Position numbers and translations under genes: made by a program. This document shows positions 12,142 through 51,398 of a DNA stretch of 64,000 nucleotides, piece by piece; positions within the stretch are counted from its first letter, which is position 1; every line of letters starts with the position of its first letter. The stretch is taken from NCBI RefSeq assembly GCF_001561995.1, contig NZ_LLWC01000022.1, positions 434,001-498,000 of the forward strand, in the 5' to 3' direction. Source of the stretch: Polycladidibacter hongkongensis (GTDB lineage Bacteria; Pseudomonadota; Alphaproteobacteria; Rhizobiales; Stappiaceae). Below the pieces are notes generated by a model. That model was given only the letters and a program-made list of their open reading frames with translations, had not been told where the DNA came from and ran no database searches.

Positions 12142-12284
12142 ACAACGCATCTCCAAACACCGAAGCTTTTAACGAGGCCGTTGAGGAATTACAGTTAATA
12201 TCGAAATACACGAATTCTTCTGCATTGAGAAAAAAATGTGAAACGGTTCTAGCAGAGAAAGGGGTGGGGGTGCTATGCGCATAA
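12081..12284 (+). CDS. Small phage protein of unknown function
   Basis: 67 residues; ATG at 12081 with GGAGAG upstream. It overlaps the preceding gene by 61 bases and the next by 10. Mixed charge, no recognised motif. Supported by ribosome site and gene-chain overlap only. Confidence 0.5.
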   Translation: MFRPKQHDEERHFWRSSCDLNNASPNTEAFNEAVEELQLISKYTNSSALRKKCETVLAEKGVGVLCA

Positions 12285-12775
12285 TGGGTGTAGATCCTGG
12301 CGGGTCGGGGGCGTTGTCCTGCATAGAAACGAGCACTATGGTGGTTATCGATTGCATTGACATGCCAGTCTTTCTGGTACAACGGGGCAAATCAGACAAA
12401 CCCAGGCTAAATACGGCAGAGGTTATCGACTTCATTTGCCGAAACCACCCGACGGAATGCTGGTTCGAGCTAGTCGGCGGGCAAGAACACGACGGCCCTT
12501 CACGCGCTTTCAACTTCGGCAGGATCACGGGAGCGTGCGAAGCGTCGATTGCAGCTGCAAAAATCCCAATTCGCTGGGTCGCGCCTCACGTTTGGAAGAA
12601 AGCTCTAACAATTAGAGGTAAGGACGCGGCCAGAGCGGAAGCGGTGAACTTTTTCCCGAATAGCGCTGAATTGTTTAAGCTCAAGAAGAATGACGGTCGC
12701 GCAGAAGCTACGCTAATCGCGGTTTACGGAGCGAGACAGCCTCGACTAGCCAACATGCGCTCCGTACTTGACTAA
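12275..12775 (+). CDS. RuvC-like Holliday junction resolvase
   Basis: 166 residues of the RNase H-like fold. First strand MGVDPGGSGAL with catalytic-type D7, second acidic residue E65 in CWFELVGGQ, and an acidic pair in NDGRAEATLIAVYG (D140, E144). Probably resolves branched replication intermediates before packaging. It ends in RSVLD, one of the shared C-terminal tails in this prophage. Confidence 0.85.
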   Translation: MRIMGVDPGGSGALSCIETSTMVVIDCIDMPVFLVQRGKSDKPRLNTAEVIDFICRNHPTECWFELVGGQEHDGPSRAFNFGRITGACEASIAAAKIPIRWVAPHVWKKALTIRGKDAARAEAVNFFPNSAELFKLKKNDGRAEATLIAVYGARQPRLANMRSVLD

Positions 12776-12788
12776 GACTTACCAATGA

Positions 12789-12825
12789 AGCAAACGCCCT
12801 CGCCCGATCGAGTGCGTTTTTTTTT
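12789..12825 (+). terminator. Rho-independent terminator after the resolvase gene
   Basis: AAACGC and GCGTTT arms flank a GC-rich loop containing a short CG inverted repeat, and run into a stretch of nine to ten T residues at about 12817-12825. It ends the first early transcript before the helicase gene. Confidence 0.6.
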
Positions 12826-12843
12826 CTTGCGCACGTCTGATAG

Positions 12844-12895
12844 TATGATTACAAAGAATACATCAGACACTTTTTAACATACATCAGGCTCGCAA
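12844..12895 (+). promoter_or_regulatory. Leader of the helicase-polymerase operon
   Basis: AGTATGATTAC at 12842-12852 contains a -10-like TATGAT. It is followed by two ACATCAG repeats, as ATACATCAGACA and ATACATCAGG, before the ATG at 12896. No good -35 is seen. Direct evidence is only the repeated motif and the position after a terminator. Confidence 0.35.
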
Positions 12896-14239
12896 ATGCT
12901 CCTTACCCCGTATGACACGCAGAAATCTGGCGCAGCTTTCTTGGCCGCGCGCAAGCGAGCTCTGCTGGCGGATGAGCCGAGGGTCGGGAAAACCGGCGCA
13001 GCTCTACTCGCCAGCCAGCGTATCGGGGCGGAACGCACACTCGTCGTGACGACTAAGTCGGGTGGAGCTGTCTGGCGGCAGGCGTGGCGAGATTGGTTGG
13101 GAGTAACAGACTGCTGCATTTCATCCAAGGGTGCTCTCAAAAAGCCCACGCCAAATAGAAATATAATCATAAGCTGGGGTTCGCTGGTCTCTCAAATCGA
13201 CCAACTCGCCGAGGTTCAGTGGGATCTAGTCATATTAGACGAGAGCCATTACGCCAAGAACCCGGAAGCGAAGCGTTCGATTGCAGCTTTAGGGCCTACC
13301 GCCTCTCCCGACTACAGCCCGCTAGAGGGGGCGTTCGGCCTAACGCCTTACGTTTGGTTTCTCACCGGAACGCCCGTGCCAAACCTGCCGCCGGACCTCT
13401 ACCCTATGTTGCGGTTCAGCGTTCCCGATCGGTTATCAGAATACGGCGTATTGGCCTATGAAGACTTCTACGCCAGGTACTGTCGCTTCTATAACAAAAC
13501 AATGCGCAGGGGTAATTGGAGCCGTAGCCTACGTATCGGTTTAGAAGCAAAGAACACAGAAGAGCTGTCCGAAGTTTTAAGCGGTTTTTGGCTACGACGC
13601 ACCCAGAAAGACGTCGGGATACAGGAACCCATCTACGAGGTATTGCCTCTTGAGGTGACGGACGGACAACGCGAAGAGCTGAGTAACATCTGGGCATCTG
13701 GTGGCATGACTGCGACGGACTTGCTGGACGCAGCCGATGTTGGAGAGACGAAAAGCCTCGACATACACCTAGGCCCGTTACGAAGGGTAACAGGCACTAT
13801 CAAAGCGCGCCCGTTAGCCGAGCTGATATGCGAAGAGCTGGACGCTGGCACTGACCGGATTGTCATTATGTACTGGCACCGTGAAGTTCGCGACCACTTC
13901 CTCAAATCGCTGGCGAAATACAGGCCCGTATTTATCGATGGCAGTTGCTCTGCCGAAGAGCGGCGCGCCGCCCAAGCTCAATTCAAAGAACGCAGTCGTG
14001 TGGCGGTTTGCCAAATTCAGGCTGCGGGGGAGGCTATCGACCTCTCCAACGCCAATGAACTGGTGTTCGCGGAGTTCAGCTTCACCCCGAAGGACATGAA
14101 GCAGGCTGCTCTACGGATCACAAATCACAACCAGATGCGACAACCGCGGGTGCGCGTTGCAGCAATCGCAGGGACCCTCGACGAGGCCCTGCAAAGATCC
14201 CTAACCCGAAAAGTTCAATCCAACAGAAAGGTAATCTAA
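12896..14239 (+). CDS. SNF2-family DEAD/DEAH-box helicase
   Basis: 447 residues. Walker A-like DEPRVGKT at 26-33, TTKSGG motif Ia region, Walker B DESH at 115-118, LTGTPVPN motif III and, in the C-terminal RecA-like half, GEAIDLSNANELVFAE and a QAALRITNHNQ motif VI-like segment. Probably a DNA translocase acting in phage replication or recombination. Genes of this class often accompany DUF2800, DUF2815 and family A polymerase genes in phages. Confidence 0.88.
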   Translation: MLLTPYDTQKSGAAFLAARKRALLADEPRVGKTGAALLASQRIGAERTLVVTTKSGGAVWRQAWRDWLGVTDCCISSKGALKKPTPNRNIIISWGSLVSQIDQLAEVQWDLVILDESHYAKNPEAKRSIAALGPTASPDYSPLEGAFGLTPYVWFLTGTPVPNLPPDLYPMLRFSVPDRLSEYGVLAYEDFYARYCRFYNKTMRRGNWSRSLRIGLEAKNTEELSEVLSGFWLRRTQKDVGIQEPIYEVLPLEVTDGQREELSNIWASGGMTATDLLDAADVGETKSLDIHLGPLRRVTGTIKARPLAELICEELDAGTDRIVIMYWHREVRDHFLKSLAKYRPVFIDGSCSAEERRAAQAQFKERSRVAVCQIQAAGEAIDLSNANELVFAEFSFTPKDMKQAALRITNHNQMRQPRVRVAAIAGTLDEALQRSLTRKVQSNRKVI

Positions 14240-14874
14240 TGGGCGTCGAGCTAACATTCAAAGATGAAGACATGCGAGGGGTGGTTGCCCAAATTCTAAG
14301 AGCTGCAGAAGGCTTTCAGCAAGGCTCCGCCCCTGTTGAAGAGCGAGGCAATTCGTGCATGACCCCAAAAGAGGAAACCCACTCCGAAGGCCAGACAGAG
14401 GCAAGCGGGGGTACGAGCGGGGATACGAGCGGCACAGAAGATAACCGCTTAGTCGGAGGTAAAACCGAGGGGAAAGCGCGTCGTACTAAAGCGGAGATGG
14501 AGAGCGACGCAGAACTAGTAGAACTCGCTGAGCGCGCCGGCATTACCGAAGATAAACTGAACTCCGTTATCGCGGAGCATGGGCGGGCATCCGCCAAAGC
14601 TGCGCTTGAAGGTCGCATACGCGATGCAGACGCGTCGGGTGCCGAAGCGCCTCTCGACCCGGTGGACAAGAAGGAAATCATTAATCGATTGCAAAAACTG
14701 ATCGAACTAAAGGGGCAGGATGTAGTTGAGCAAGAAGCCCCTACATGGATGGGCGCCGCCGGTGTTAGCGCTCTCATGGGCAAAAGTCCAGCAGCGCAAC
14801 ACGAGGCTCTGCAGCAGCTGCAACAGCAAATAGACAACCACCGCGAAAGTGGCGGGTCGGGCTTGTTAGATTGA
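14239..14874 (+). CDS. Hypothetical acidic phage protein
   Basis: 211 residues; its ATG overlaps the helicase stop (TAATG). A Glu/Gly/Thr-rich, probably disordered stretch at about 40-85 precedes a helical part with Gln-rich segments. No family recognised. It ends in SGLLD, matching the shared C-terminal tail pattern. Its position between helicase and DUF2800 suggests a replication or recombination accessory role (inference). Confidence 0.7.
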   Translation: MGVELTFKDEDMRGVVAQILRAAEGFQQGSAPVEERGNSCMTPKEETHSEGQTEASGGTSGDTSGTEDNRLVGGKTEGKARRTKAEMESDAELVELAERAGITEDKLNSVIAEHGRASAKAALEGRIRDADASGAEAPLDPVDKKEIINRLQKLIELKGQDVVEQEAPTWMGAAGVSALMGKSPAAQHEALQQLQQQIDNHRESGGSGLLD

Positions 14875-14875
14875 T

Positions 14876-16174: not shown

Positions 16175-16185
16175 GAAAGATAAAC

Positions 16186-16848
16186 ATGGCGAAACGGAAG
16201 AGAATGTATCGGGCAGAGCCACGTCTGGTGTCTGCGGAAGCCCGCGGCTCTTATCTGCAAGGCTTATTCAACCCACAGGTCAACGAACGCGGGCAGACCA
16301 TTTGCCAAGTAACGCTCATTTATAAAGAGAACGAGATCGATGAGCTAAAGGCGATGGTTGCCGAGTGCGTAAACGGGGAGTGGAAGGATAAAGGCGTTGG
16401 TCTGTTTAAGGAAGGCCTTATTAAAAATCCGATTTTATCAGGCAAAGGCAAAGAGGCGAGAAACAAAGAGACCGGAGAGATTAAAGAAGGTCTCGGCGAG
16501 GGCCTGGTGTTTATACGCCCTAACCGGTTTATTTCAGAGACAGTCGGGCTCCCTCAAGTCGTTAACCGCCGCCGCGCACCAATCACCAAAGAAGATTTCA
16601 ATAACGGTGTGATGAAATCAGGAGATTACGTTTACGCCTGCCTAGGGGCTTACTGCTGGGAAAACGATGAAGGGGGGAAAGGTGTCTCGTTCTCAATCGA
16701 AGCGATCCAGTTCGTTCGCGAGGGTGAGCGACTAGGTAGCGCCGGCGGTGTAGATGTCTCCAAAACCTTTAAAGATCTGGGCGGGGATGAAGCCGAAAAA
16801 TCAAAGGTCTCTGCAACAGGCGGCGGGGCTGCGTCATTGTTTGACTAG
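16186..16848 (+). CDS. DUF2815 family protein (predicted ssDNA-binding)
   Basis: 220 residues with a beta-rich, lysine-rich body and a disordered tail rich in Lys, Ser and Gly from about 185. DUF2815 proteins sit beside DUF2800 and a family A polymerase in many phages and are presumed to bind single-stranded DNA. The terminal ASLFD is the clearest example of the shared tail. RBS AGGAAAG upstream of the ATG at 16186. Confidence 0.82.
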   Translation: MAKRKRMYRAEPRLVSAEARGSYLQGLFNPQVNERGQTICQVTLIYKENEIDELKAMVAECVNGEWKDKGVGLFKEGLIKNPILSGKGKEARNKETGEIKEGLGEGLVFIRPNRFISETVGLPQVVNRRRAPITKEDFNNGVMKSGDYVYACLGAYCWENDEGGKGVSFSIEAIQFVREGERLGSAGGVDVSKTFKDLGGDEAEKSKVSATGGGAASLFD

Positions 16849-16860
16849 TTTGTATGATTT

Positions 16861-16885: not shown

Positions 16886-16902
16886 AAATTTCCGAGGTGT
16901 TT

Positions 16903-17103
16903 ATGATTAACATTGTTAAAGAAATCAGCCTTCGCCGAACAGGACCTTATCGCTGGCAGGGGAACATGCGCTTCGAAATGGGGGAAGGGTGGGTAGTAGA
17001 GCACGGCACCAGCGCGCAAGAAGTCTTTGCGAAACTTATGCAACCTGAATTGCGTAAGCCAGTTCCTGCCTCCGAAGCAAAAAAGCAAAGTGTATTCGAC
17101 TGA
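16903..17103 (+). CDS. Small hypothetical phage protein
   Basis: 66 residues from the ATG at 16903, with GAGGTG upstream. Basic with several aromatics, no recognised fold. Ends KKQSVFD, the shared tail; the Q before SVF makes it one of the closer matches to a clamp-binding peptide. The stop overlaps the start of the methyltransferase gene. Confidence 0.65.
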   Translation: MINIVKEISLRRTGPYRWQGNMRFEMGEGWVVEHGTSAQEVFAKLMQPELRKPVPASEAKKQSVFD

Positions 17104-18122
17104 TGTCAGCGTACTACAACGAGATAGACAAACAAGCCGCTCAATGGCTTCGAGAACTAATAGCGTGGGGGCTTATTGCGGATGGGGAAGTTGACGAGCG
17201 AAGCATTTCTGATGTCACACCGACTGACCTCAGAGGATTCACACAGTGCCATTTCTTTGCGGGAATCGGCGTGTGGTCATACGCGCTCAGACAGGCGGGG
17301 TGGCTTGATGAAGCCCCAGTCTGGACCGGCTCCTGCCCCTGCCAGCCTTTCAGCACGGCAGGCCGAAAGCGCGGGGTTGCTGACGAGCGGCACCTATGGC
17401 CGCACTGGCAGCACCTCATCAGACAGTGCAGACCTGCAGTCGTGTTTGGAGAGCAAGTTGCGAGCCAAGACGGCCTCGGTTGGTTCGATACTGTACAAGC
17501 TGACATGGAAGGAGAGGGTTACGCCATCGGGGTTGCGGATTTGTGCGCTGCGGGCGTCGGTGCCCCGCACATCAGGCAGCGTCTCTACTTCGCAGCGCAA
17601 AGGCTGGCCGACCCCTCAACTGAGCGATGCTTCAGGGGGGGGGCAGCTGGCAAGAGCACTACACACCAAGAGGTCCAACAACCTAAACGACTTTGCCCAA
17701 CTGGCAGGGTGGCCGACAGCTTCCGCGCGGGACCACAAAGGTGGGTACTCGGGCGGCAGAATGAGGAAAGGAAAACTGTCAACGGATACGCTGGACGTCG
17801 CCGTACAACTGGCAGGGTGGCCGACAGCAACGCAAGTGGACGGGACGAAGGCCTGCAACAGGCACCGGGAGGACAGGCAAAACGGAGTGGGTGCGGTCGC
17901 CTCAATAACCACGCCGATACGTATGACCAACACTGGCAAGATGTTGACTGGCTGTTCTGCAGAGATGGCAAGTGGCGGCCAGTTGAGGCCGGGACACACC
18001 CGCTGGCTCATAGGGCTCCCGCCCGAATGGGACGTCTGCGGGGTTATGGCAATGCTATCGTCGCGCAAACGGCGCGAATCTTCATAGAGGCCTTTCGCGA
18101 ATCTAGGGGGCTGGATGCCTGA
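17103..18122 (+). CDS. DNA (cytosine-5) methyltransferase (dual-coding locus, frame A)
   Basis: 339 residues with the m5C methyltransferase motifs in order: FAGIG (52-56, SAM binding), PCQPFS with catalytic C80, GEQV (116-119, in place of ENV), RQRLYF (158-163) and GYGNAIVAQ (314-322). The stretch between motif VIII and the C-terminus (about 165-300) is the variable target-recognition region and carries a repeated TGRVADS. Modifies phage or host DNA, probably against restriction. Almost the whole gene is overlapped by a long second frame, described separately. Confidence 0.88.
   Translation: MSAYYNEIDKQAAQWLRELIAWGLIADGEVDERSISDVTPTDLRGFTQCHFFAGIGVWSYALRQAGWLDEAPVWTGSCPCQPFSTAGRKRGVADERHLWPHWQHLIRQCRPAVVFGEQVASQDGLGWFDTVQADMEGEGYAIGVADLCAAGVGAPHIRQRLYFAAQRLADPSTERCFRGGAAGKSTTHQEVQQPKRLCPTGRVADSFRAGPQRWVLGRQNEERKTVNGYAGRRRTTGRVADSNASGRDEGLQQAPGGQAKRSGCGRLNNHADTYDQHWQDVDWLFCRDGKWRPVEAGTHPLAHRAPARMGRLRGYGNAIVAQTARIFIEAFRESRGLDA
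17176..18087 (+). CDS. Overlapping +1-frame protein within the cytosine methyltransferase gene
   Basis: 303 codons open inside the methyltransferase gene. It is not a random shadow: it has the layout of a phage protein family I recognise from memory, often annotated as a methyltransferase or hypothetical. Core SLSARQAESAGLLTSGTYGR (57-76) and LYKLTWKERVTPSGL (106-120), three GWPT(P/A) repeats (143, 178, 214) and a C-terminal TRWLIGLPPEWD segment. An internal ATG at 17308 after GGGGTGG could be the true start. Function unknown; whether it is translated is untested. Confidence 0.5.
   Translation: MRMGKLTSEAFLMSHRLTSEDSHSAISLRESACGHTRSDRRGGLMKPQSGPAPAPASLSARQAESAGLLTSGTYGRTGSTSSDSADLQSCLESKLRAKTASVGSILYKLTWKERVTPSGLRICALRASVPRTSGSVSTSQRKGWPTPQLSDASGGGQLARALHTKRSNNLNDFAQLAGWPTASARDHKGGYSGGRMRKGKLSTDTLDVAVQLAGWPTATQVDGTKACNRHREDRQNGVGAVASITTPIRMTNTGKMLTGCSAEMASGGQLRPGHTRWLIGLPPEWDVCGVMAMLSSRKRRESS
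17698..17828 (+). repeat. 23-bp direct repeat inside the dual-coding region
   Basis: An identical 23-bp sequence starting CAACTGGCAGGGTGG occurs at 17698-17720 and 17806-17828, 108 bp (36 codons) apart, so both frames repeat in phase: frame A reads TGRVADS and frame B reads QLAGWPTA at each copy. Confidence 0.85.
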
Positions 18123-20373
18123 CATAATTGAGATCGACTATGAAACCCGCTCCCCGCTGAAGCTTCGCGACGTCGGGGCCTACAAGTATTTTGACAGCCC
18201 CTATACGCAAGTGATGATGGCGAGTTACCAAGTCAACGATAGCGGCGAGATAAAACGATGGTCAATCGGCGACCCCTGCCCCGCAGACATAAAGGAGCTT
18301 TTCCCCGCCCCCTCTACAATTATTTTCGCCCACAACGCCGCGTTCGAACGTCTCGCCACATGCAAAGTTATGTCGGTTCGCCACGGCTGGCCCGCCCCCC
18401 GATTGGAGCAGTACCGCGACACAGCTGCCATGGCTGCAGCTCAGTCATTACCACGTAAACTGGAGGAGTTAGCTAAAGCTCTCGCGCTGCCTGTCCAAAA
18501 GGATATGGACGGGAACAAACTCATGCAGAAATTGTCCAAACCACGGAAGATATGGACACCTGAAGATAGGAGCCACAAACGTTTCCCCCCGCCAGCGGTT
18601 TTGCGAGAGAACCCATTGCAGTACACCGATACGGAGGATGGGCGGGTGATTGAGTGGTGGGCTGACGCGCAGGATATCGAGCGGGAGCATTTCTACTGCG
18701 ATCGAGACGTTGAAACGCAACAAGCCGTACGCCATGCCCTTGTTGATCTGCCCCGCAGCGAATGGGAGACGTACTGGCTCACCGAACGAATGAATGATGC
18801 TGGCGTACCAATCAGCCGCGAGCTTTCCTCAGCGCTGCAGCAGCAGGTCGAACATGCGCGAGAAGAATTAGATCAAGAATGCCGTAGCTTAACCGGCGGT
18901 CAGGTGACCACACTTTTACAGCGAGACAGGATACGTAACACGCTGGAACGCGATTTCGGGCTATCCTTACCAGATCTTCAAGCCGCCACACTGGAGAAAG
19001 CTCTGAACCGGAGCGATATCTCCGTTCAAGCGAGGCGCTTAATAGAATTAAGGCTCGAGGCTGGGAAAGCCTCAACTGCAAAGCTGAGAAAGATCGACCA
19101 AGCTATCTGTTCTAGTGGCTGCATTCACGGCGTGCATGTCTATCACGGCGCGAGCACAGGTCGCTGGTCTGGCAGACTGTTGCAAACTCAAAACATGCCG
19201 AGGGGCACCGGAACCGTGCCGGATCCAGTGAGCGCCGTGCCTACCATGCTGGTTGCTAGCCCGGCGACCATTCGCATGGTCTACGGCCCACCGATAGCCG
19301 CAGCTTCCGACTGCCTCCGCGCTGTCATTACCGCGCCTAAAGGCAGCGAGCTATTCGCCGCCGATTTCGCGTCCATCGAAGGGCGGGTTATTGCGTGGCT
19401 AGCAGGTGAGAGCTGGAAAATCGAGGCGTACGAGCTGGCGGATGTGGGCAAGGGCCCTGGGCTTTATGAAGTCGCCGCTGGCGGCATCTACGGCGTTGAC
19501 CCCGCCTCAATAGGCAAGAAGGACAAGAGGAGACAGGTAGGTAAGGTTGCCGATCTAGCGTTAGGCTTCGAGGGTGGCGTGATGGCGCTGTTCGAGATGG
19601 CCGAAGCCTACCACCTAGACATGGCCGAAGCCTACGAAAGCCTGCAGGCCGCGGTTGACGAAGGTGTTTGGGTGAAAGCCGAGAAATCATACTGCAAAAA
19701 GAAGTTAGCCTACGAGGAGAAGTACTCCGAACTCGCACCTCGCCACGGTAAAGACAAAGCAAAGGAGGCCGCCTCTAAGCTGGCATACGGGGTGGACGTT
19801 CTGCCAAGGGAAGCCTGGATAGCTTCCGAAGTTACCAAACAGCAATGGCGCGCTAAGCACCCCATGGTTCGTAAACTGTGGCAAGGGCTTGTCGACGCCG
19901 CAATACAGGCAACGCTATTCCCAGGTACAAGCCGCAGCTACGGCGGTGTTTCATACCTCGTTAAACTAGGTTTCCTTTGGTGCCGCCTGCCTTCAAAACG
20001 TTGTCTGGCCTACGGGGCGCCGCGCGTAAAAACAACTAAAACGCCCTGGGGCACGGACACCTACTCACTCTCTGGCATGACGCTAGACAGCAAGACCGGA
20101 AGGTGGTTGCGCAAGTCCCTGTACGGCGGGTTGTTGACAGAAAACGTTGTGCAGGCAATCGCTCGAGATCTGATGGCGCAGGGTTTGAAAGCGACAGAGG
20201 CTGCAGGTTACCGCAATATCATGACAGTTCACGACGAAGGCGTTGCTCTAGTGCCGGACGGCTTCGGCTCCTTGGAAGAGTACTGCCGCCTATTGGCCTC
20301 AAAACCACCTTGGGCAACCGGCATCCCCCTACGCGCCGAAGGCTATCGCTCGAGGCACTACAAGAAAGACTAA
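18115..20373 (+). CDS. Phage DNA polymerase, family A (Pol I-like)
   Basis: 752 residues. N-terminal 3'-5' exonuclease-like domain beginning IEIDYETRSPL, then polymerase motifs: motif A region LFAADFASIEGRVIAWLAGE (about 413-432), a motif B-like helix region in the middle, and motif C MTVHDEG (about 703-709). Main replicative enzyme of the phage. It overlaps the methyltransferase gene by 8 bases. Confidence 0.93.
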   Translation: MPDIIEIDYETRSPLKLRDVGAYKYFDSPYTQVMMASYQVNDSGEIKRWSIGDPCPADIKELFPAPSTIIFAHNAAFERLATCKVMSVRHGWPAPRLEQYRDTAAMAAAQSLPRKLEELAKALALPVQKDMDGNKLMQKLSKPRKIWTPEDRSHKRFPPPAVLRENPLQYTDTEDGRVIEWWADAQDIEREHFYCDRDVETQQAVRHALVDLPRSEWETYWLTERMNDAGVPISRELSSALQQQVEHAREELDQECRSLTGGQVTTLLQRDRIRNTLERDFGLSLPDLQAATLEKALNRSDISVQARRLIELRLEAGKASTAKLRKIDQAICSSGCIHGVHVYHGASTGRWSGRLLQTQNMPRGTGTVPDPVSAVPTMLVASPATIRMVYGPPIAAASDCLRAVITAPKGSELFAADFASIEGRVIAWLAGESWKIEAYELADVGKGPGLYEVAAGGIYGVDPASIGKKDKRRQVGKVADLALGFEGGVMALFEMAEAYHLDMAEAYESLQAAVDEGVWVKAEKSYCKKKLAYEEKYSELAPRHGKDKAKEAASKLAYGVDVLPREAWIASEVTKQQWRAKHPMVRKLWQGLVDAAIQATLFPGTSRSYGGVSYLVKLGFLWCRLPSKRCLAYGAPRVKTTKTPWGTDTYSLSGMTLDSKTGRWLRKSLYGGLLTENVVQAIARDLMAQGLKATEAAGYRNIMTVHDEGVALVPDGFGSLEEYCRLLASKPPWATGIPLRAEGYRSRHYKKD

Positions 20374-20400: not shown

Positions 20401-20598
20401 ATGCGCAAAAACCCACCACAGCACACTCAGGTGCGCACATTGAGGCTCAATGAGAAGTTAGACCAGGAGATAATGCGCCTCGCGCAGCACTACGGATTCA
20501 CGGAGTTTTCGCCATTTATGCGTTTCTTAATGCTCGATGCGCTCCGCCGCCATCGCTCTTCGGAGGAGAAGGGAGGTCGACGCTGTGACGATCGATGA
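20401..20598 (+). CDS. Small basic protein, possibly ribbon-helix-helix
   Basis: 65 residues; GGATAGGAAAGG before the ATG. VRTLRLNEKLDQEIMRLAQHYGF followed by a helical FMRFLMLDALRRH resembles a MetJ/Arc-type ribbon-helix-helix DNA-binding fold. Could be a small regulator; function not established. Confidence 0.55.
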   Translation: MRKNPPQHTQVRTLRLNEKLDQEIMRLAQHYGFTEFSPFMRFLMLDALRRHRSSEEKGGRRCDDR

Positions 20599-20791
20599 GC
20601 TCCGCATCGCCCTCCGCGAGGAAAGCGGGGGTCGCGTAAGCATCAATGTTTTCTCGTTTTCGAACGGTGCCCGTGTGGTTTTAACTTTAAAGTTCGAAGG
20701 CGGGAAGGAGCTCCAATTCGAAGGTGAGAGCTTCGAGGAGTGCCGGCAGCAGCTTTTTGCGAAAAGAAGCGCGCCGAGCGTGTTTGATTAA
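20585..20791 (+). CDS. Small hypothetical phage protein
   Basis: 68 residues from a GTG at 20585 with GGGAGGT upstream. This start is better than an earlier in-frame ATG at 20537, which lies deep in the preceding gene. Beta-rich, with VSINVFSFSNGARVVLTLKFEGGKE unrecognised. Ends APSVFD, one of the shared C-terminal tails. Overlaps the preceding stop by 14 bases. Confidence 0.65.
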   Translation: MTIDELRIALREESGGRVSINVFSFSNGARVVLTLKFEGGKELQFEGESFEECRQQLFAKRSAPSVFD

Positions 20792-20825: not shown

Positions 20826-23102
20826 ATGACAACAACGAACCAAACAGATAATGCCTTTCAAAGGTTCTGGGAGGCGGGCTACACGCGACTGTGTCCGATC
20901 ATCCCGCCTGGAGCACCTCTCGACCCTGAAAGCGCAGCGGCGAAACGTCTAGCGAGCCACCCAGACAAAGACCCACGCGGCAAAGCACCCGGCGTCCCTG
21001 GAGTAGACGGCCTCTGGAAGGGTTTGGACTTTGTGCACACCGAGAGCACTGAGTTTTCAGTGGCCAAATGGCACGAGGACGGAGCTGGCGTTGGCATAAA
21101 AACCGGAGACGGGTTGATTGCTGTCGATATAGACACCACCGACCCCTCAAAAGCAGCTCAGCTAACAAAGGCGGCCATTCAGATACTAGGTGAAGCCCCT
21201 GCACGCATAGGAAGGGCCCCTAAAACCCTATTGCTGTACCGCGTGGCGGAAAGCATCCCCTACGAAAAGGTCACGTTCTCGACAGAGACAGAGGACCGCG
21301 CTCTTGTGGAGATATTAAGCGAGGGCAGGCAGTTCGTCGCTCACGGGGTGCACCCAACGACTTCCCGCCCCTATCACTGGCCGGAGGGCGTTCCGCAGTA
21401 TGACGAACTGCCGACGACAGATGCTGAAGCTTTGGAGGCTTACTTAGCGTGGGTAGAGCAAAACAGCGATGCCCCCAGGCGTTTCTCCGGCGGTAGTATA
21501 GATAGATCGGAGATTGACCAGAGCACCCTCGTCGGGGATAGGGATTTAATCACACAAGCTCTGGCTCGGCTGCCAAATACCACGGCCACCTTCCCGACAA
21601 GAGATGACTACTTGCGGGTCGGCTACGCCGTAAAGGCTGCCTTTGGCCCTGAACTGGAGCAGGAAGCTTTCTCCGCCTTTTTCGATTGGTGCTCTAGATG
21701 GGATGGCGGTGTAAACGACCACAATGAGGTTTTATCCGATTGGAACCGAATGAAGCCGCCTTACATGGTAGGCTCATCTTGGCTGTATAAGCAAGCTGAA
21801 GACCTCGGCGGTTGGCGGGGTAGAGTAGAATCTATCTTTAACGATTTAGGCGAACGCCCCGCTGCCGAAACAGACCCATTTGATTGGATTAGACCTGAAA
21901 TAGACGAAGGCCCCGCTGCCGAACCAATAAAACCGCACCGCCTATCTCTGGGTGACCTGGCAGAAATCCCGCCTCGGCAGTGGCTATACGGCAGCAAAAT
22001 CTCGCGCGGATACACAACAATCCTATCATCCCCTGGAGGGGTCGGGAAGACAGCCCTCGCAACCGTGCTAGCCGTTTCCTGCGCGGCAGGGAGTGAGTTG
22101 ATCGGCGACACTCCGGTTCACCCCCTCAAGGTGTGGATGTACAATCTGGAGGACGACCTGACCGAGATCAAAAGGCGGCTGAAAGCGGCACTGTTGTTTT
22201 ACGGCTTAGGTGACGATGTCCTTGCCAACATACTAGTCCTCTCGGGACGTGACCGAAGACTGAGCTTACTGAAGCAGGATAACAAAGGATCATTGACCGA
22301 GCTACCCGATGCGGATCTCTTAAAAGCGAGTATAATAGATAACGGAGTTGACCTGCTCGTGGTCGATCCGTTCGCAAGGTCACACCAAGTCAACGAGAAT
22401 GACACATCCGCACAAGACGAGCTTATGAGGATCTACGCTCAGGTCGCACACGAAGCGTCCTGTGGTGTACTCCTGCTGCACCACTTCAATAAGCAAGGGG
22501 AAGCTGGTGATATGAACGCGGTGCGCGGCAGCAGCGCCCTCACAGCAGGCGCACGCTCGGTCCTGACAGTCGCCCCTATGCCTGAAGACGACGCGAAAGC
22601 TCTGGGCATCGAAGTCTCTCAGCGTCGCAGATACATCCGCATTGATGATGCTAAAAACAACATGTCCCCTCCCGCTCGTAGCGCAGAGTGGCTATTCCTA
22701 GACAGTTTTGATCTGGAGAACGGAACAGAAATATACCCGCAGGGCGATAGCGTCCAGGTCGCGACGGCGTGGACACCGCCGGGGCCGGGGGACGGAATGA
22801 CCCGCAGCGACGAGGAGGCGGCGCTAGCAGTGCTCGATGAAGGGCTGGCGGGTGAGAGGTTTTCCGCCAAACCATCAGCTAAAACGAGATGGGCTGGCGA
22901 TATGCTGATGGAGCGTTTCGGTCGCAGCCGCGTACAGGCAGTAGGTCTGTTGAATAAATGGTTGAAGCTCAATTACATAGAGGAACGCAGCTACCGCTCA
23001 CCAACCTACCGCCGGTCAACTCAAGGCATCTTTGTCAACTTCTCGAGCTTCGCATCAGAGGTGTTTGAAGATCTGGGTGACGGCGGGAGTGTGTTGAACT
23101 AG
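20826..23102 (+). CDS. Primase-polymerase/helicase fusion
   Basis: 758 residues. The N-terminal bifunctional primase/polymerase domain (about 10-200) contains VGIKTGDGLIAVDIDT, with metal-binding aspartates. Residues about 390-640 are a RepA/AAA_25-type hexameric helicase: Walker A SSPGGVGKT (about 399-407), Walker B LLVVDPFARSH and a GVLLLHHFNK sensor strand. A short C-terminal winged-helix-like part follows. Ends GGSVLN, a variant of the shared tail. Starts phage DNA synthesis with the polymerase. Confidence 0.88.
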   Translation: MTTTNQTDNAFQRFWEAGYTRLCPIIPPGAPLDPESAAAKRLASHPDKDPRGKAPGVPGVDGLWKGLDFVHTESTEFSVAKWHEDGAGVGIKTGDGLIAVDIDTTDPSKAAQLTKAAIQILGEAPARIGRAPKTLLLYRVAESIPYEKVTFSTETEDRALVEILSEGRQFVAHGVHPTTSRPYHWPEGVPQYDELPTTDAEALEAYLAWVEQNSDAPRRFSGGSIDRSEIDQSTLVGDRDLITQALARLPNTTATFPTRDDYLRVGYAVKAAFGPELEQEAFSAFFDWCSRWDGGVNDHNEVLSDWNRMKPPYMVGSSWLYKQAEDLGGWRGRVESIFNDLGERPAAETDPFDWIRPEIDEGPAAEPIKPHRLSLGDLAEIPPRQWLYGSKISRGYTTILSSPGGVGKTALATVLAVSCAAGSELIGDTPVHPLKVWMYNLEDDLTEIKRRLKAALLFYGLGDDVLANILVLSGRDRRLSLLKQDNKGSLTELPDADLLKASIIDNGVDLLVVDPFARSHQVNENDTSAQDELMRIYAQVAHEASCGVLLLHHFNKQGEAGDMNAVRGSSALTAGARSVLTVAPMPEDDAKALGIEVSQRRRYIRIDDAKNNMSPPARSAEWLFLDSFDLENGTEIYPQGDSVQVATAWTPPGPGDGMTRSDEEAALAVLDEGLAGERFSAKPSAKTRWAGDMLMERFGRSRVQAVGLLNKWLKLNYIEERSYRSPTYRRSTQGIFVNFSSFASEVFEDLGDGGSVLN

Positions 23103-33578: not shown

Positions 33579-34088
33579 TTAACTCAGAACGTTCGCACCC
33601 TCTCCAGCCTTCGTGGCTGTGGAAGCAGCTTTGTCAGTATCTTCAGCGGCTTTTTTCTCACCGGCTGCGGTTCGTTTCGACCGGGAAGCGGTTTGTTTGG
33701 TTTTCCGCTCCGCCGATTTCGTATTGGTTGGCTCCTGGCCCGCAGAGGCTTGCGGAACCTTAACCCGACTTAATGGCTTAAGCTGTTCGTCTAGAATTTC
33801 GCACTCCTTAAAAGATGAAGGCAGCTGTGCGAATTTGTCTGGAAAGACAATCGCTACTGGCGATGGCTTGTCAGTTCGTGCCGGATACTTCTCGAGCAAC
33901 CGCTCTCGTTCCAAATTAACGGGCAGGTCTTCTGCCGCAGGAGTGAATTCTAGGTTGAAAACGGACCCAGCCCCATGGATTTCCTGAAGGATAAGAAACT
34001 CCGCAGGCGATACGCCCGACTGAGGAACCGTCTCCTCGCGATCCCCCCCCAGCGCAACTTCACATTTCGCAAGATTTTTTAACAACAT
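33579..34088 (-). CDS. Hypothetical phage protein with Lys/Ala-rich tail
   Basis: 169 residues. An N-terminal globular half is followed by a disordered C-terminal half (about 110-169) dominated by Lys, Ala, Thr and Ser. Unrecognised. Located just after the major capsid gene, where head decoration or head-completion proteins often lie. Confidence 0.6.
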   Translation of the reverse strand: MLLKNLAKCEVALGGDREETVPQSGVSPAEFLILQEIHGAGSVFNLEFTPAAEDLPVNLERERLLEKYPARTDKPSPVAIVFPDKFAQLPSSFKECEILDEQLKPLSRVKVPQASAGQEPTNTKSAERKTKQTASRSKRTAAGEKKAAEDTDKAASTATKAGEGANVLS

Positions 34089-46646: not shown

Positions 46647-46679
46647 AAAAAACCCCCTATTGCGTACGACATCAGACAT

Positions 46680-46954: not shown

Positions 46955-47419
46955 TCAGTCGAAAATAGTAGGCTGTTTGGGGGTTACATCCGTCAATTCG
47001 CGTTCCTGCTGCAGCCGCTGGGCCTCGAGGCGGGCGATTTGCGCATCTATCTGGGAGAGGCTCAACGCGTCAGGGCTCCTGTTGGCGTCGTCCCGCCCGT
47101 CGGCGGTGAGCATGTGCGCCTGTTTTAGGACTATGTCAGCCGCGCGAATTTTGTCCTGGTTCCGCGCCCCGTCGTCTCGCATAATACTCAGTAGCACTTG
47201 ATGCGCGACATTTTGGGCCCCCTCGCTCCCCGCTAACCAAACCAGCTGCGCCCGCTGGACCTGTTCAATGATTTGCGCCCTATTCTCTAGCCGAGCTGCC
47301 ATCGCTGAGGGGTTTTTGTAGCCCGCAGCCCGCGCCGCCTCGATGGGGTTCCCTAGTTCGGCCCGTTTACCAATATATTTATATTCCATGGCTGTTAAAT
47401 CGCGTGGTTTGCGTGGCAT
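46955..47419 (-). CDS. terS: Terminase small subunit
   Basis: 154 residues from the ATG at 47419 with GGGAG upstream; the longer frame to 47674 covers a promoter region. MPRKPRDLTAMEYKYIGKRA followed by NPIEAARAAGYKNPSAMAARL is a typical small terminase helix-turn-helix, then a helical oligomerisation region. The end is QPTIFD, the only late protein with the shared C-terminal tail. It recognises the packaging start on phage DNA. Confidence 0.75.
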   Translation of the reverse strand: MPRKPRDLTAMEYKYIGKRAELGNPIEAARAAGYKNPSAMAARLENRAQIIEQVQRAQLVWLAGSEGAQNVAHQVLLSIMRDDGARNQDKIRAADIVLKQAHMLTADGRDDANRSPDALSLSQIDAQIARLEAQRLQQERELTDVTPKQPTIFD

Positions 47420-47498
47420 GTCTCTACTCCCAGATCTGTATGCTGACGCTAGCATCCTCAATAGATTACCCACAGTCAACAAATATCTGATTTGACGG

Positions 47499-47531
47499 TT
47501 GACACTGCCCATACACACCCGACAATATGTC
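47499..47531 (+). promoter_or_regulatory. Rightward promoter/operator before the 41-residue gene
   Basis: TTGACA at 47499-47504 (-35 like), 18-base spacer and CAATAT at 47523-47528 (-10 like). The symmetric element GACAATATGTC at 47521-47531 covers the -10 and is identical to the one at 11770-11780 in the lysogeny switch. Confidence 0.5.
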
Positions 47532-47534
47532 GCC

Positions 47535-47660
47535 ATGATCCACACCACACTAATCTGCGCCCTCGTCCTGCTGGGCGTGCTCGGCCTAGTCTGTCTACTA
47601 TCGGCGGATCTATTAGAGCGGGCGCTACGCAAACTATTAGGCGGAGCATCTGACAACTGA
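47535..47660 (+). CDS. 41-residue single-pass membrane peptide
   Basis: ATG at 47535, TGA ending 47660. The first 22 residues are a hydrophobic Leu/Val-rich helix, followed by a basic amphipathic tail (ERALRKLLGGASDN). First rightward gene after the divergent point with terS. Possibly a lysogeny-expressed exclusion or membrane factor; no homologue recognised. Confidence 0.5.
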   Translation: MIHTTLICALVLLGVLGLVCLLSADLLERALRKLLGGASDN

Positions 47661-48041
47661 GCGGCTGCGAACACGGTCGCGCGGGTGAGCGTCAGCGAAC
47701 ACGCACGCGCGATCGTTTTTGCTACGCCCCCGCGCCTCCTCTCTTATAGTGCCCGTTTTTCTAGAGGAGCGCTCAAGCGCGCCCTACATAGTACCGTAGG
47801 TACAGTATCACTTGCGCAGTCACAACGCACGGTCACAACTCCCCCATATTGTAGGCGACTAAACGTGCGGGCGGGCGCTTGCGCATGTTGCTCAACCTCC
47901 TAGCCCCGCCTGAGCGCCACCCTGGTTTCAGTTAACTACATTTTGTCTGTTTTGTATGTTGACATGTCCGACATAATGTCATACATGTAACCTATCAGAG
48001 ATTGAGGGCGCCCAGTCCGTCAACATATAGGAGAGCTGACA
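47661..48041. other. Gap with divergent structures and a strong promoter-like region
   Basis: About 380 bases without a convincing gene. The left part is GC-rich with small palindromes (AGTACCGTAGGTAC near 47790). The right part carries TTGACA (47959-47964), the palindrome GACATGTC (47961-47968) and GACATAATGTC (47970-47980), then ATACAT (-10 like, 47981). This is a likely repressor-controlled rightward promoter. Confidence 0.5.
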
Positions 48042-48152
48042 ATGAGGACCATTACGCGCATCTACCGCCGTTATTTCGGGCGCGCGCCTACGCTGCACCG
48101 CACTCCCCGCCCCGCGGTATTGCCCGCACGCTGGCAACGGCCGGGGGTCTGA
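48042..48152 (+). CDS. 36-residue very basic peptide
   Basis: ATG at 48042 after a strong AGGAGAG ribosome site, stop TGA ending 48152, one base before the next start at 48154. Ten arginines in 36 residues, with Pro in the C-terminal half. Function unknown; the RBS is the main evidence. Confidence 0.45.
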   Translation: MRTITRIYRRYFGRAPTLHRTPRPAVLPARWQRPGV

Positions 48153-48153
48153 C

Positions 48154-48384
48154 ATGTGCGATGTATGGCAATGGGAGCCCCACCCTGACAGCCCCGAGAA
48201 ATATCTGATGTTTGACGGGTCCAAATCGACCATCGTTCGCGTGCAACCGTTACTCGAGGGTTATCTGTGGCAGGCGGGGAAAAAATACGGATTTGCCGAG
48301 GATTTAGAGGAAGCGCAGGCTTGCGCCGAGGGGGTGCACCACCAACTCAATCTCGAACCCTCCGAGCGTTGGCTCTCAATTTAA
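48154..48384 (+). CDS. Hypothetical 76-residue protein
   Basis: Begins MCDVWQWEPHPDSPEKYLMF, with an acidic helical segment (GFAEDLEEAQACAEGVHHQL). Unrecognised. It immediately follows the 36-residue peptide. Confidence 0.55.
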   Translation: MCDVWQWEPHPDSPEKYLMFDGSKSTIVRVQPLLEGYLWQAGKKYGFAEDLEEAQACAEGVHHQLNLEPSERWLSI

Positions 48385-48398
48385 CTATAATGTATGAT
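48369..48398 (+). promoter_or_regulatory. Promoter-like element before the DUF3560 gene
   Basis: TTGGCT at 48369-48374 and TATGAT at 48393-48398 (within TGTATGATTT) are separated by 18 bases, just before the GTAAGGAG ribosome site of the gene at 48416. One instance of the recurring TGTATGAT motif with an acceptable -35. Confidence 0.5.
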
Positions 48399-48415
48399 TT
48401 GTAAGGAGACACACA

Positions 48416-49828
48416 ATGACAAACACCCACGCTCAAACTATTGTCACCATCGAAAAAATTGAGGGCATGCAAGCCACCTATAGCCCCGAAGATAACAAGT
48501 TGCGGCTTTACGCACCTTACCGGCTGGATGAAGACCTTTACAAAGTCGTTCGGGCATACGGTTTTATCTATGCACCAAAGCAAGAGCTGTTTGTTGCCCC
48601 CGCATGGACCCCGCAACGTGAAGACCTTTGCTTTGCATTGGCTGGCGAAGTCGAGCCGGAAGAAACCACACTTGCAGAACGCGCCGAAGCCAAAGCGGAG
48701 CGGCTGGAAGCGGCAGCACAAAAGAAAATGGGGCTGGCACAAAGCTACATCAACACAGCCGATGAACTCTCTCGCGCCTTTGAAATGGGGCAACCTATCC
48801 TCGTAGGGCACCACTCAGAGCGCCGCGCCCGTCGCACACAAGAGCGCATGGATGCAAACATGCGCAAGGGTCTAGCAGCAGAGAAAGGCGCGGCTCATTG
48901 TCTGTCTCTTGCATCAGGAGCCGAGGCGCACGCCAATTATAAGAATAAGCCGGCTGTTCGCGCACGCCGTATTAAAACACTGCTAACAGAATTGCGCGAC
49001 TTGCAGCGCGGCCTTAACCACGCTCAAAAGGCTTTGAAATGCTGGAATAAAGCTGAAAGCGACGAACAAATAAAAGCGCTTGTTAATGCCGGTTATATAT
49101 CGAGCGGCTCCCTCACTCTTTTTGAGGACTACCAAGCCCTGATAAAAAACGAGCTGACCCCGCAGGAGGTGAAGGAGCGCAACCTTAAGGCTTGGGGCAA
49201 TGTGTTTAAAGGCCGTAACCGTCGCCGCTGTATCGAGCATGTGCTAAACCGCTTGGCTTACGAACGCGAATTGCTAGGCCCTGTCACACGCTTTAAAGGC
49301 GAGTTGAGCGCGGCTGTTTTGCAAACCTTCGCCCGGACCCACGGGGCCGACAAGCCGAAGGCAAAAGCACTGGATGATGGTAGAATTGAACTTTCAAGCC
49401 GTGTGGATTTACCCGCCCATATGTGCGCAGGGCTTGAGCTGAAAAGCCTCACCCTATCAGTGGAAGGGTGGCGCAACCTTATGCAAGATATGGGCTACGA
49501 AGTGCCAGCCAAGGCACCGGCAAAAGCGCCAATCCTGAACTTTCAGGCTGAGACACTTTCAAGCCCGAACCAGTACCACAGGGGCGAGGTGATTACTTAC
49601 GACCAAGTTACCATGACCAAGGCCGAATATGCCGCGATACACAAGGATTATCGCGGCGTTAGGCTCTCAACATGTGGTCAGTTCCGCTTTAAGGTTTGCT
49701 ATTATCGCAAGAGCGGCGAGCCTTTTTCCTCCCGTGAGTTGGTGGCTGTTTTCCTGAGTGACAGCAAAGCGCACCCAGCCCCAGAAAGTGAGGCGATCGA
49801 CCGGCACCTAAAGGCGAAAGCAGCCTGA
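48416..49828 (+). CDS. DUF3560 domain protein
   Basis: 470 residues; strong GTAAGGAG ribosome site. The N-terminal TYSPEDNKLRLYAPYRLDEDLYKVVRAYGF and LFVAPAWTPQREDLC segments and the following long basic coiled-coil (AERAEAKAERLEAAAQKKMG) match DUF3560, known from plasmids and integrative elements and of unknown role. Codon choice looks more like the host genes than like neighbouring phage genes, suggesting a separate acquisition together with the next gene. Confidence 0.8.
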   Translation: MTNTHAQTIVTIEKIEGMQATYSPEDNKLRLYAPYRLDEDLYKVVRAYGFIYAPKQELFVAPAWTPQREDLCFALAGEVEPEETTLAERAEAKAERLEAAAQKKMGLAQSYINTADELSRAFEMGQPILVGHHSERRARRTQERMDANMRKGLAAEKGAAHCLSLASGAEAHANYKNKPAVRARRIKTLLTELRDLQRGLNHAQKALKCWNKAESDEQIKALVNAGYISSGSLTLFEDYQALIKNELTPQEVKERNLKAWGNVFKGRNRRRCIEHVLNRLAYERELLGPVTRFKGELSAAVLQTFARTHGADKPKAKALDDGRIELSSRVDLPAHMCAGLELKSLTLSVEGWRNLMQDMGYEVPAKAPAKAPILNFQAETLSSPNQYHRGEVITYDQVTMTKAEYAAIHKDYRGVRLSTCGQFRFKVCYYRKSGEPFSSRELVAVFLSDSKAHPAPESEAIDRHLKAKAA

Positions 49829-49835
49829 CAAGCAG

Positions 49836-49858
49836 CGCCGCGCCAATTGGGCGCGGCG
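49836..49858. repeat. GC-rich hairpin between DUF3560 and methyltransferase genes
   Basis: A 9-bp stem (CGCCGCGCC 49836-49844 / GGCGCGGCG 49850-49858) with a 5-base loop; no T run follows, so termination is uncertain. Confidence 0.4.
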
Positions 49859-49886
49859 GGCCTCCCTCAAAAGTAAAGGTGCTATC

Positions 49887-50477
49887 GTGAAAAAGTCCGT
49901 TTATAGCCGCCCCAATAAGCCCATGTTTATTGAACGCAAAAAGCGCAACTTAGCGACACTGGCAAAGCCGGAAATCCGGCAACCGCTTACCGTTGATCGG
50001 GCCAGCGAATGCCATATAACACCGGCACCGGTTGCCGCTCGCATGGCGAGCTATTTAGGCCCGCTGAAAAGCGGCAAAATCCTGGAGCCAAGCGCAGGCA
50101 CCGGCGCATTGTTACAAGCCCTCCTAGACGTTGGAACAGAGCCGCAGGCAATAACCGCCATTGAGCGGCACAACAAACTTGCCTCAGCGCTCAGCTTTGA
50201 GGGGGTGACAGTGCGCAACTGTTGCTTTCTGGAATATGCGGCAGACACGGGGGAAAGGTTTGAAAAAATCATTATGAACCCGCCCTTTTCCAAGGTGCGC
50301 CAGCACATGAAAGCCGCGCTGGCACTGCTAGACAAAAAAGAAGGTGCGGCACTGGTTGCCTTGGTTCCTATCACTTTTCAGCACGAAGACGCGCAAACAC
50401 TGGAAGAGCTGGACGAGAACACATTTGCCACAGCCAAGGTGCGAACCAAGATCATTCTCATTGAAGCGATGAATTGA
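49887..50477 (+). CDS. DNA methyltransferase-like protein (NPPF)
   Basis: 196 residues from a GTG at 49887. SAM motif ILEPSAGTGALL (EPSAGTG 67-73) and catalytic NPPF (131-134) of the N6-adenine class, with the ECHITPAPVAARM lead segment of plasmid-borne methyltransferases. Such genes commonly follow DUF3560 genes, supporting a functional pair. Lacks a target-recognition domain. Confidence 0.75.
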   Translation: MKKSVYSRPNKPMFIERKKRNLATLAKPEIRQPLTVDRASECHITPAPVAARMASYLGPLKSGKILEPSAGTGALLQALLDVGTEPQAITAIERHNKLASALSFEGVTVRNCCFLEYAADTGERFEKIIMNPPFSKVRQHMKAALALLDKKEGAALVALVPITFQHEDAQTLEELDENTFATAKVRTKIILIEAMN

Positions 50478-50544
50478 TAAAAAATATTAGCTATTAAGCA
50501 CATTCACACCCCCTTATGATTGGGCCAACTTGGAGGGCGTGAAT

Positions 50545-50787
50545 GTGCATTGGCTAATATTATTGTTGTTTTTACTATTCGTGCTGGCGCTGAGCTTCAC
50601 TCTAACAGCGACAAACAAGCGGGCACGAGCCGCAGGATGCTACATCTTGAGCGCGTTCCTGTTGGCTAGCGCTGTCGGCTGCGCGTGGTTCGTAAATACG
50701 CAGGGCAAACCTGCAGGCGCTCATTTTTGGACAGCGTTGTTAGCTGCTACAGCTTATAAAACGTTTGTTCGCGCCCGCAAAACCTAA
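50545..50787 (+). CDS. Small membrane protein, two/three helices
   Basis: 80 residues from a GTG at 50545 with GGAGGG upstream. Very hydrophobic helix 2-21 (WLILLLFLLFVLALSF), a short polar loop with NKRARA, then helices about 28-47 and 55-70. No family recognised; a superinfection-exclusion role is possible but only a guess. Confidence 0.55.
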   Translation: MHWLILLLFLLFVLALSFTLTATNKRARAAGCYILSAFLLASAVGCAWFVNTQGKPAGAHFWTALLAATAYKTFVRARKT

Positions 50788-50798
50788 AAGGGGCTATT

Positions 50799-51398
50799 TT
50801 GGGCAAACTGCGAATACCGTTCGTGTTGGCAACAGGAGGCGAGTGGGCACACCCCCACAGCTATAAAAACGCGCGCTTCATCTGCCTAGGGGTCAAACCA
50901 GGGAGGGCGAATTTAGAGGTCGAGTGCGTAGATTGCGCGGCACGTTTCGTGGATTTTGTCACGCCACGCAAGCGAACCATCCGCACCAGGTGCCGAGCCT
51001 GTTTTGAGCAATTCACGAGGCGAGTAGAAGAAGGCCAACCGCCCGCCCCGCCGCCTCAGCCGAAGACTGAGCGGAAATTACCTACGTCTTTGTTGCTGCA
51101 AGCCTTCGCACACGTGAGTAACGCGCCGCGAATGCAACTGACGAACCCCGGTCAAGCTCAAACATACGCTCCCAGAATATTAGCCCGCTCGCCGGATTTA
51201 GCGGGTTGGTCGCATACCGATATAAGAAAAAGTTTAGAGCGGGCTTTGAAGAGCTCGCAGTTGGTCTGGGCGGACTGCGGGCGCGACAACCACAGACGCA
51301 AGATTTACACTCTCTGCCCGAACACTAAAGACTGGCTTGATTACACCGCGTCAGTAAGCCTGCAACGCCGCGCACCGAAAAGAAGCGTGTTGGATTAA
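50799..51398 (+). CDS. Zinc-ribbon-like phage protein
   Basis: 199 residues from a TTG at 50799 after AAAAGGGG. Two CxxC pairs, VECVDCAARF and TRCRACFEQF, spaced about 27 residues apart, form a probable zinc ribbon in the N-terminal half; the C-terminal half is a helical domain with LARSPDLAGWSHTDIRKSLE. Ends KRSVLD, the shared tail. It is the last phage gene before attR. Confidence 0.6.
   Translation: MGKLRIPFVLATGGEWAHPHSYKNARFICLGVKPGRANLEVECVDCAARFVDFVTPRKRTIRTRCRACFEQFTRRVEEGQPPAPPPQPKTERKLPTSLLLQAFAHVSNAPRMQLTNPGQAQTYAPRILARSPDLAGWSHTDIRKSLERALKSSQLVWADCGRDNHRRKIYTLCPNTKDWLDYTASVSLQRRAPKRSVLD

Follow-up and report, generated by a model that had tools for sequence, protein, structure and literature searches.

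The window considered here, a stretch of 64,000 nucleotides from Polycladidibacter hongkongensis (contig NZ_LLWC01000022.1), contains a prophage which spans positions 9176-51626 and is bounded by 37-bp direct repeats (9176-9212 and 51590-51626). Our subject is a short C-terminal tail, which in this prophage is found on the gp2.5-type single-stranded DNA-binding protein (SSB) as well as on five to eight further, unrelated proteins. An earlier note on this DNA, made from the sequence alone, had listed eight such tails under a common pattern of serine or threonine followed by hydrophobic residues. All eight C-termini are encoded exactly as written there (RSVLD, SGLLD, ASLFD, QSVFD, PSVFD, GSVLN, PTIFD, and RSVLD), and all eight genes fall within the attachment (att) repeats. 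The pattern fits most of them; SGLLD has a glycine, not S/T, in front of the hydrophobic pair, and a ninth candidate, GANVLS, had been missed. The genes concerned, together with that of the family A DNA polymerase (PolA), are the following; structure models were computed with AlphaFold2 (AF2), and their confidence is given as predicted local distance difference test (pLDDT) values.

12275-12775, plus strand: RuvC-like Holliday junction resolvase (PHROG 1770, E 3.8e-23), tail RSVLD at 12758-12772.
14239-14874, plus strand: protein without assigned function, tail SGLLD at 14857-14871; the least certain member.
16186-16848, plus strand: gp2.5-type single-stranded DNA-binding protein, DUF2815 (PF10991, E 2.4e-13; PHROG 112, gp2.5-like, E 1.1e-15), tail ASLFD at 16831-16845.
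16897-17103, plus strand: small protein without assigned function, tail QSVFD at 17086-17100.
18115-20373, plus strand: family A DNA polymerase, PolA (PHROG 17, E 1e-81; AF2 mean pLDDT 90.8), untailed, ends RHYKKD.
19630-19818, plus strand: region of PolA with two segments inserted in the tail clade (residues 506-526 and 550-568), from the PolA alignment.
20537-20791, plus strand: small protein without assigned function, tail PSVFD at 20774-20788.
20826-23102, plus strand: primase-helicase (PF13481, PF09250, PF08707), tail GSVLN at 23085-23099.
33579-34088, minus strand: ninth candidate, head-region protein adjoining the capsid gene, no family match, tail GANVLS at 33582-33599.
46955-47674, minus strand: putative terminase small subunit (TerS; weak match to PHROG 641, E 0.0074; no Pfam match), tail PTIFD at 46958-46972.
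50799-51398, plus strand: putative zinc-ribbon protein (label of the earlier note), inside the att repeats, tail RSVLD at 51381-51395.

The earlier note had held that these tails are commoner than chance allows, which is borne out: the end [ST][VILMAG][FL][DN] occurs in 6/46 genes called between positions 9001 and 53600 (the prophage plus a little host flank) and in 0/320 host genes sampled from 18 stretches (360 kb), with P 9e-13 relative to the internal frequency of the pattern. A pattern-free test, in which pairs of proteins with similar last four residues are compared with internal tetrapeptides, gave 10 similar C-terminal pairs in the same region, where 1.6 +/- 1.3 were expected. Collecting homologues and testing for enrichment, as the note had proposed, revealed tailed homologues for four of the eight proteins and a strong enrichment in related phages. 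Homologues ending [VIL]F-x in other phages exist for the proteins with RSVLD (12775), ASLFD, GSVLN, and PTIFD; in the RuvC-like family, 14/36 members end in this way (e.g. DDIFE). Relatives of the SGLLD protein (14874) were found only in copies of the same phage (3/3), and homologues of the QSVFD (17103) and PSVFD (20791) proteins likewise. The gene at 50799-51398 has no Pfam match and no relative in the collected sets and was missed by our gene finder, and the real start of the small-terminase gene probably lies further in than called. Within the host's family, 2/87 genomes matched the prophage, namely its own genome and one with broken fragments.

The polymerase and the DUF2800 nuclease served as queries in two scans of viral contigs; the broader set thus assembled comprises 111 loci, some of them sharing one contig. 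Genes were called with a codon-based finder, which recovered 40/42 checked annotated plus-strand stops in Rhizobium phage RHph_N65 (69 annotated features) and 54/54 in EBPR siphovirus 2 (81 features). Two earlier callers were discarded, the second at a recall of 20/42 stops. With these, 142 tails were counted in 2,733 genes (5.3 expected) and 174 in 2,698 (5.6 expected), which points in the same direction; these numbers are not used. Among 2,513 non-redundant proteins, 273 have [VIL]F followed by exactly one last residue, compared with an expectation of 14.7, while offsets 0 and 2-7 gave 25, 13, 14, 15, 13, 15, and 12; phenylalanine occupies position -2 in 353 of these proteins (z 30). The signal resides in one clade of the polymerase tree, the tail clade: there, 190/1,100 proteins have [VIL]F at offset 1 (6.0 expected), and the counts at five other offsets are between 2 and 8. 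Outside this clade the count at offset 1 is 12/936, with 19 at offset 0 instead. At the C-terminus, the consensus reads [E/G]-[G/D/S]-[V/I/L]-F-[G/D/A/E/S], and each tail-clade genome encodes three to 13 proteins with a strict tail.

The pattern-free test agrees with these counts. Sharing of C-termini at p<0.05 was found for 24/24 F-clade genomes, all of which reach the floor of the test (p=0.0033), and for 11/19 other PolA phages, 2/23 RusA control loci, and 0/9 host bins. One RusA control locus, L323, has 7 similar pairs where 1.0 is expected; its ends are of a different, charged kind (GENT, GKNT, EKQA). RHph_N65 and EBPR siphovirus 2 have the same type of end on many proteins, which was not seen on the proteins of APSE-1. 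Four of 29 prophage loci bear 7-11 tails, among them those of Rhodopseudomonas (11), Nitratireductor (8), and Bosea (7), which belong to the tail clade; three others bear 1 or 2 tails and 22 none, the latter mostly from Gram-positive hosts and other polymerase clades.

Tails are distributed over many protein families, 63/1,429 of which have a tailed member, 21 of these 63 having two or more distinct tailed members; the chance expectation for tailed genes is about 6. The following numbers refer to strict tails in the 24 F-clade genomes. Tailed without exception are RusA (15/15), the DEDDh exonuclease (9/9), and families 10 (17/17) and 14 (21/21), which are among the most regularly tagged and for which family searches gave no annotation. 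SSB, present in 24/24 genomes, has the strict tail in 22/24, and three primase-helicase families have it in 20/23. The putative TerS (family 49) is tailed in 18/21 cases (21/21 if relaxed ends are counted), the RuvC-like protein in 5/8, two methylases in 5/6 and 6/7, two ribbon-helix-helix proteins in 6/8 and 4/4, and the head-region family 250 in 10/19. The GapR-like family 5, named after a match to PF10073 (E 1.5e-14; locus L002, 20936-21190), is tailed in 17/22; this DNA-binding protein forms part of the phage replication module. No tail was found on integrase (0/21) or on family f4 (0/21). The labels methylase, f4, and integrase derive from sequence reading, position, or the RHph_N65 annotation. 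The strict tail is also missing from SNF2 (0/23) and nearly so from DUF2800 (1/24); relaxed tail-like ends, e.g. EVLA and DILD, occur on 13/23 and 11/24 of them, respectively. PolA is never tailed, neither in F-clade genomes (0/22) nor among all 82 family members (0/82). The number 22 leaves aside genome G003, whose PolA is cut at the contig end (L008), and EBPR siphovirus 2, in which PolA ends RYRK and contains a large insertion. This insertion (gene at L003, 26691-29828) comprises about 300 residues and looks like an intein.

Three observations characterize the tail as such. An alignment of the DEDDh exonuclease places it behind the common core in seven tail phages, whereas the relative outside the clade (L019) has the core without it; the tail is an add-on to a common protein core. 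Among 40 SSB members, which were picked for having the tail, phenylalanine at -2 is invariant. The AF2 model of the SSB has low confidence in the tail region (residues 181-220, pLDDT 50-68); comparison of its sequence with solved structures gave four weak matches only (best 4jg2, E 0.0081).

A scan starting from RusA, with a query built mostly from tailed RusA, separates the tail from its carrier. It kept 80/557 relatives and gave 77 new loci for examination, six of which had no RusA call. Wherever RusA is F-tailed (18 loci), one or more replication-module genes are present as well (PolA itself in 8), and the strict tails number 4.5 per locus; 12 of these 18 are on contigs that were already in the set. 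The 53 loci with an untailed RusA contain a module gene in one case (1/53) and 0.02 tails per locus. Four of these 53 RusA proteins end GALFAA, with the phenylalanine one residue further in and without the module. The tail thus goes with the replication module of the phage rather than with RusA as such.

Other lineages have other tails, which again recur on several proteins of one phage. Genome G007 has DDLLA on SSB, DEMLS on the GapR-like protein, and AAMLS on RuvC; G027 has EYMLS and EEMLS on two methylases and EEMLS on family 10; G019 has LDMLA on the GapR-like protein, EEMLA on family 38, and DDPMA on SSB. In a sister lineage (L017, L020, L023, L024), SSB ends [DN]PA[SG]LF, and the end DPASLF recurs on two other proteins of G008 (the record of L017) and on one of G011 (the record of L024). 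Salmonella phage Chi has [DE][DE][DEN]V ends (e.g. EDEV) on 8/53 genes, namely primase, exonuclease, SSB, small terminase, gp1, gp4, the gene after the capsid gene, and PAPS reductase. YMC16 has DDLV, DELI, and similar ends on 6/28 genes, and Phobos has DGLI, EDLI, and similar ends on 7/36; BPP-1 ends are DLV and GLV, RcSimone-Hastad has DPLA three times, and BabaJaga has [FW]DIL three times. A tailed exonuclease occurs in Chi, YMC16, Phobos, and BPP-1, a Phobos helicase ends EDLI, and in Chi, YMC16, and Phobos the gene that directly follows the major capsid gene bears the tail as well (L233:18207-18500, L224:18935-19207, L234:23037-23555). Note that the patterns of single phages were picked after inspection, so that their P values are descriptive. 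An unbiased comparison, with the phage's own SSB, was made for 16 lineages, SSB being identified by annotation or, for seven phages, by PHROG 112 at E 7e-34 or better: other proteins match the tail of their own SSB 34 times and those of other lineages 7.8 +/- 4.0 times (p=5e-5, the floor of the test). Rhizobium phage N65 and the prophages of Bosea, Nitratireductor, and Rhodopseudomonas have F-type tails, a Rhodobacter phage uses DPLA, and a Brevundimonas phage uses FDIL; the hosts of all these we take to share one class, Alphaproteobacteria.

A short, exactly C-terminal, and family-independent tip which changes on several families at once suggests a shared docking site, and docking is very probably what the tails serve. 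The hub that receives them is quite probably encoded by the phage, for three reasons: the tail follows the module; the tails of Klebsiella and Salmonella phages (DDLV, DEV) do not resemble a clamp motif; and phages infecting one host class differ in their tails. We give an even chance to the phage's own PolA as this hub: it was found in 24/24 F-clade genomes, it is never tailed, and T7 tails contact the polymerase. The gp4 tails of T7 bind basic patches of the gp5 polymerase (PMC12593628), and contacts with both polymerase and primase-helicase have been linked to the tail of gp2.5 (PMC5686142). In T7 itself, gp2.5 ends DGDF, gp4 ends DTDF, and gp5 has no tail. On balance, then, we lean towards an expanded version of the T7-type SSB/helicase tail system, in which a lineage-specific C-terminal peptide would dock on a phage-encoded hub, PolA being the likeliest one. 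The tails would compete for one pocket on this hub, and primase-helicase, resolvase, nucleases, modification and transcription factors, and the putative small terminase would exchange at the fork by means of them. The earlier note had proposed a shared tail which gathers replication proteins on the host DnaN clamp, or on another hub, and reaches into packaging. This is supported in part: the tailed homologues of four of the eight proteins and the strong enrichment favour a docking tail that brings replication proteins together and extends to packaging, and DnaN as the hub is not supported.

One candidate docking site may be located. The tail-clade PolA contains two inserted segments, 506-526 and 550-568, which about three quarters of the PolA sequences outside the clade lack (alignment of 37 tail-clade and 33 other sequences); the AF2 model places helices at 503-513, 516-544, and 546-556 in this part of the protein. 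Compared with the PDB, the model matched Pol I fragments (Z 21.7, rmsd 3.4-3.8 over 494-523 residues), and the T7 enzyme was absent among the 50 matches listed.

Several results weigh against a tail system docked on PolA. On trees of 56 phages, tail class requires 8 changes on the PolA tree vs 7 each on the SNF2, DUF2800, and SSB trees; choosing the hub by tree congruence thus did not separate the candidates. F-type tails are not strongly acidic, unlike those of T7, and one polymerase seems to offer few docking sites for about ten ligands. In G027, SSB (LEGMED) and the GapR-like protein (ALGML) are without the MLS end of the other three proteins. Matches to the own SSB are zero in BabaJaga, BcepC6B, DLP4, and PaenBob; the pattern-free test detected no significant sharing in BcepC6B, DLP4, Donnerlittchen, PaenBob, and APSE-1, and was borderline for G008, G011, and G019 (p 0.06-0.09). 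The control loci, too, have a slight excess of similar C-termini (29 vs 17.0 pairs in the RusA controls, 12 vs 8.8 in the host bins).

The DnaN clamp of the host was the hub named in the earlier note. The bacterial clamp-binding motif is QL[SD]LF, and [S/D/G]-[V/I/L]-F resembles its second half, a small or acidic residue being followed by an aliphatic one and phenylalanine; moreover, the clamp family PF00712 was found in 0/50 phage records, some of which are fragments. (PF02916, the T4-type clamp, gave 0/22 records, and its positive control likewise gave no match.) Yet glutamine at -6, two residues before S/D, occurs in 11/273 tailed proteins (z 0.3) and is not enriched, and the register is strictly C-terminal. 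Enterobacterial phages carry non-clamp tails (DDLV, DEV) and another lineage DPLA, phages of one host class differ, and the RusA scan ties the tail to the phage module. Host DnaN was rejected on these grounds, and we consider it very improbable. The strongest rival to PolA is the SSB, whose OB-fold groove could take up the tails of other proteins as it does its own, so that they would gather on SSB-coated single strands. In crystals of the Enc34 SSB, the C-terminus of one molecule occupies the sheet groove of its neighbour, and further DUF2815 structures are said to show comparable contacts (PMC5686142). The presence of SSB in 24/24 F-clade genomes, the match of tails to the own SSB tail, and the many sites on SSB-coated DNA would also fit. 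Nevertheless, the low pLDDT values of the SSB monomer (50-68 for residues 181-220) indicate no confident self-docking, although a contact in trans would be invisible there, F-type tails have little charge to mimic DNA, and the partner reported for the gp4 tail of T7 is the polymerase (PMC12593628). We regard the SSB groove as rather unlikely.

Another protein of the module, i.e. the SNF2 helicase, the DUF2800 nuclease, or an uncharacterised one, is a doubtful hub. Both SNF2 and DUF2800 travel with the module, and strict tails are practically confined to other families; however, about half of their members have the relaxed tail-like ends given above, an exonuclease and a helicase are tailed in other lineages (the exonuclease in Chi, YMC16, Phobos, and BPP-1, a Phobos helicase with EDLI), no SNF2 was found in the possibly incomplete contig G005, and family f4 is missing from several genomes. 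The tails might also protect from host proteases or expose to them rather than dock, since degradation signals are often C-terminal. We think this highly unlikely, as function decides which proteins carry a tail, integrase and most other families having none, and as tails match the own SSB tail and change on several families at once. Chance or an artefact of gene calling, finally, can be practically dismissed: patterns of single phages were indeed chosen after looking, but the pattern-free test, together with the controls from host genes and RusA loci, speaks against chance, and the recovery of 40/42 and 54/54 checked stops in two phages speaks against an artefact.

The kind of system is already known from the T7 SSB/helicase tails, the T4 clamp motif, and the C-terminus of SSB (SSB-Ct). 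As in T7, a gp2.5-type SSB and a primase-helicase share a short tail (here ASLFD and GSVLN) at the very C-terminus, and a family A polymerase is present and itself untailed. Unlike T7, which has two tailed proteins, tail-clade genomes have the three to 13 mentioned above, and the carriers include resolvases, exonuclease, methylases, transcription factors, and a putative small terminase. The tail itself, G/D/S-V/I/L-F-G/D/A/E/S, is weakly acidic with a penultimate phenylalanine, whereas that of T7 is strongly acidic with a terminal aromatic residue; the tails of Chi, YMC16, and Phobos are acidic and end with V, L, or I. In E. coli, the acidic tip DDDIPF of SSB-Ct ends P-F, and this one SSB tail is read by many partners. 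Here, the conserved tip likewise sits on a low-confidence, probably disordered SSB linker, but many proteins carry copies of it, and they end F-x or L-x, not P-F. For T4, interchangeable hydrophobic C-terminal motifs of gp43, gp55, and gp33 are described, by which the gp45 clamp links replication and late transcription (PMC2988020). Here too, a number of phage proteins that are not related to each other have a hydrophobic C-terminal motif in common, presumably for a single hub; in contrast to T4, the polymerase never carries it, and no DnaN-type clamp gene was found in the 50 phage records. Compared with QL[SD]LF, the lack of Q enrichment, the fixed C-terminal register, and the tails DEV, DDLV, and DPLA of other lineages are differences. 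A literature search, which covered few subscription journals and was judged by its listings, found no account of a tail on up to 13 proteins per genome, nor of tail codes that differ by lineage or of packaging and head-region proteins bearing such tails.

The right 37-bp repeat of the prophage (51590-51626) overlaps the end of an RNase P RNA gene (51596-51992, minus strand); because of this overlap, rnpB appears to be the integration site of the phage.

A wider proposal, which we put forward tentatively and hold to be less probable than the docking system as such, is that each lineage of PolA phages possesses a private C-terminal address code. Written by the SSB and present on up to 13 proteins per genome, this code might assemble a factory for replication, recombination, modification, transcription, and packaging on one phage hub. 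From one lineage to the next it would change in many families together, keeping the docking sites of co-infecting phages and of the host apart, and the head-region protein and putative TerS would be tagged so that replication hands the DNA directly to packaging.

If the proposed docking is true, the two-member tail system of T7 would become a widespread and expandable docking code of phage replisomes. It would provide a sequence-only rule to predict which uncharacterised phage proteins, e.g. those of families 10 and 14, act at the replication fork, and the short tail peptides are directly testable. Packaging and head-region proteins would thereby be linked to the replisome.

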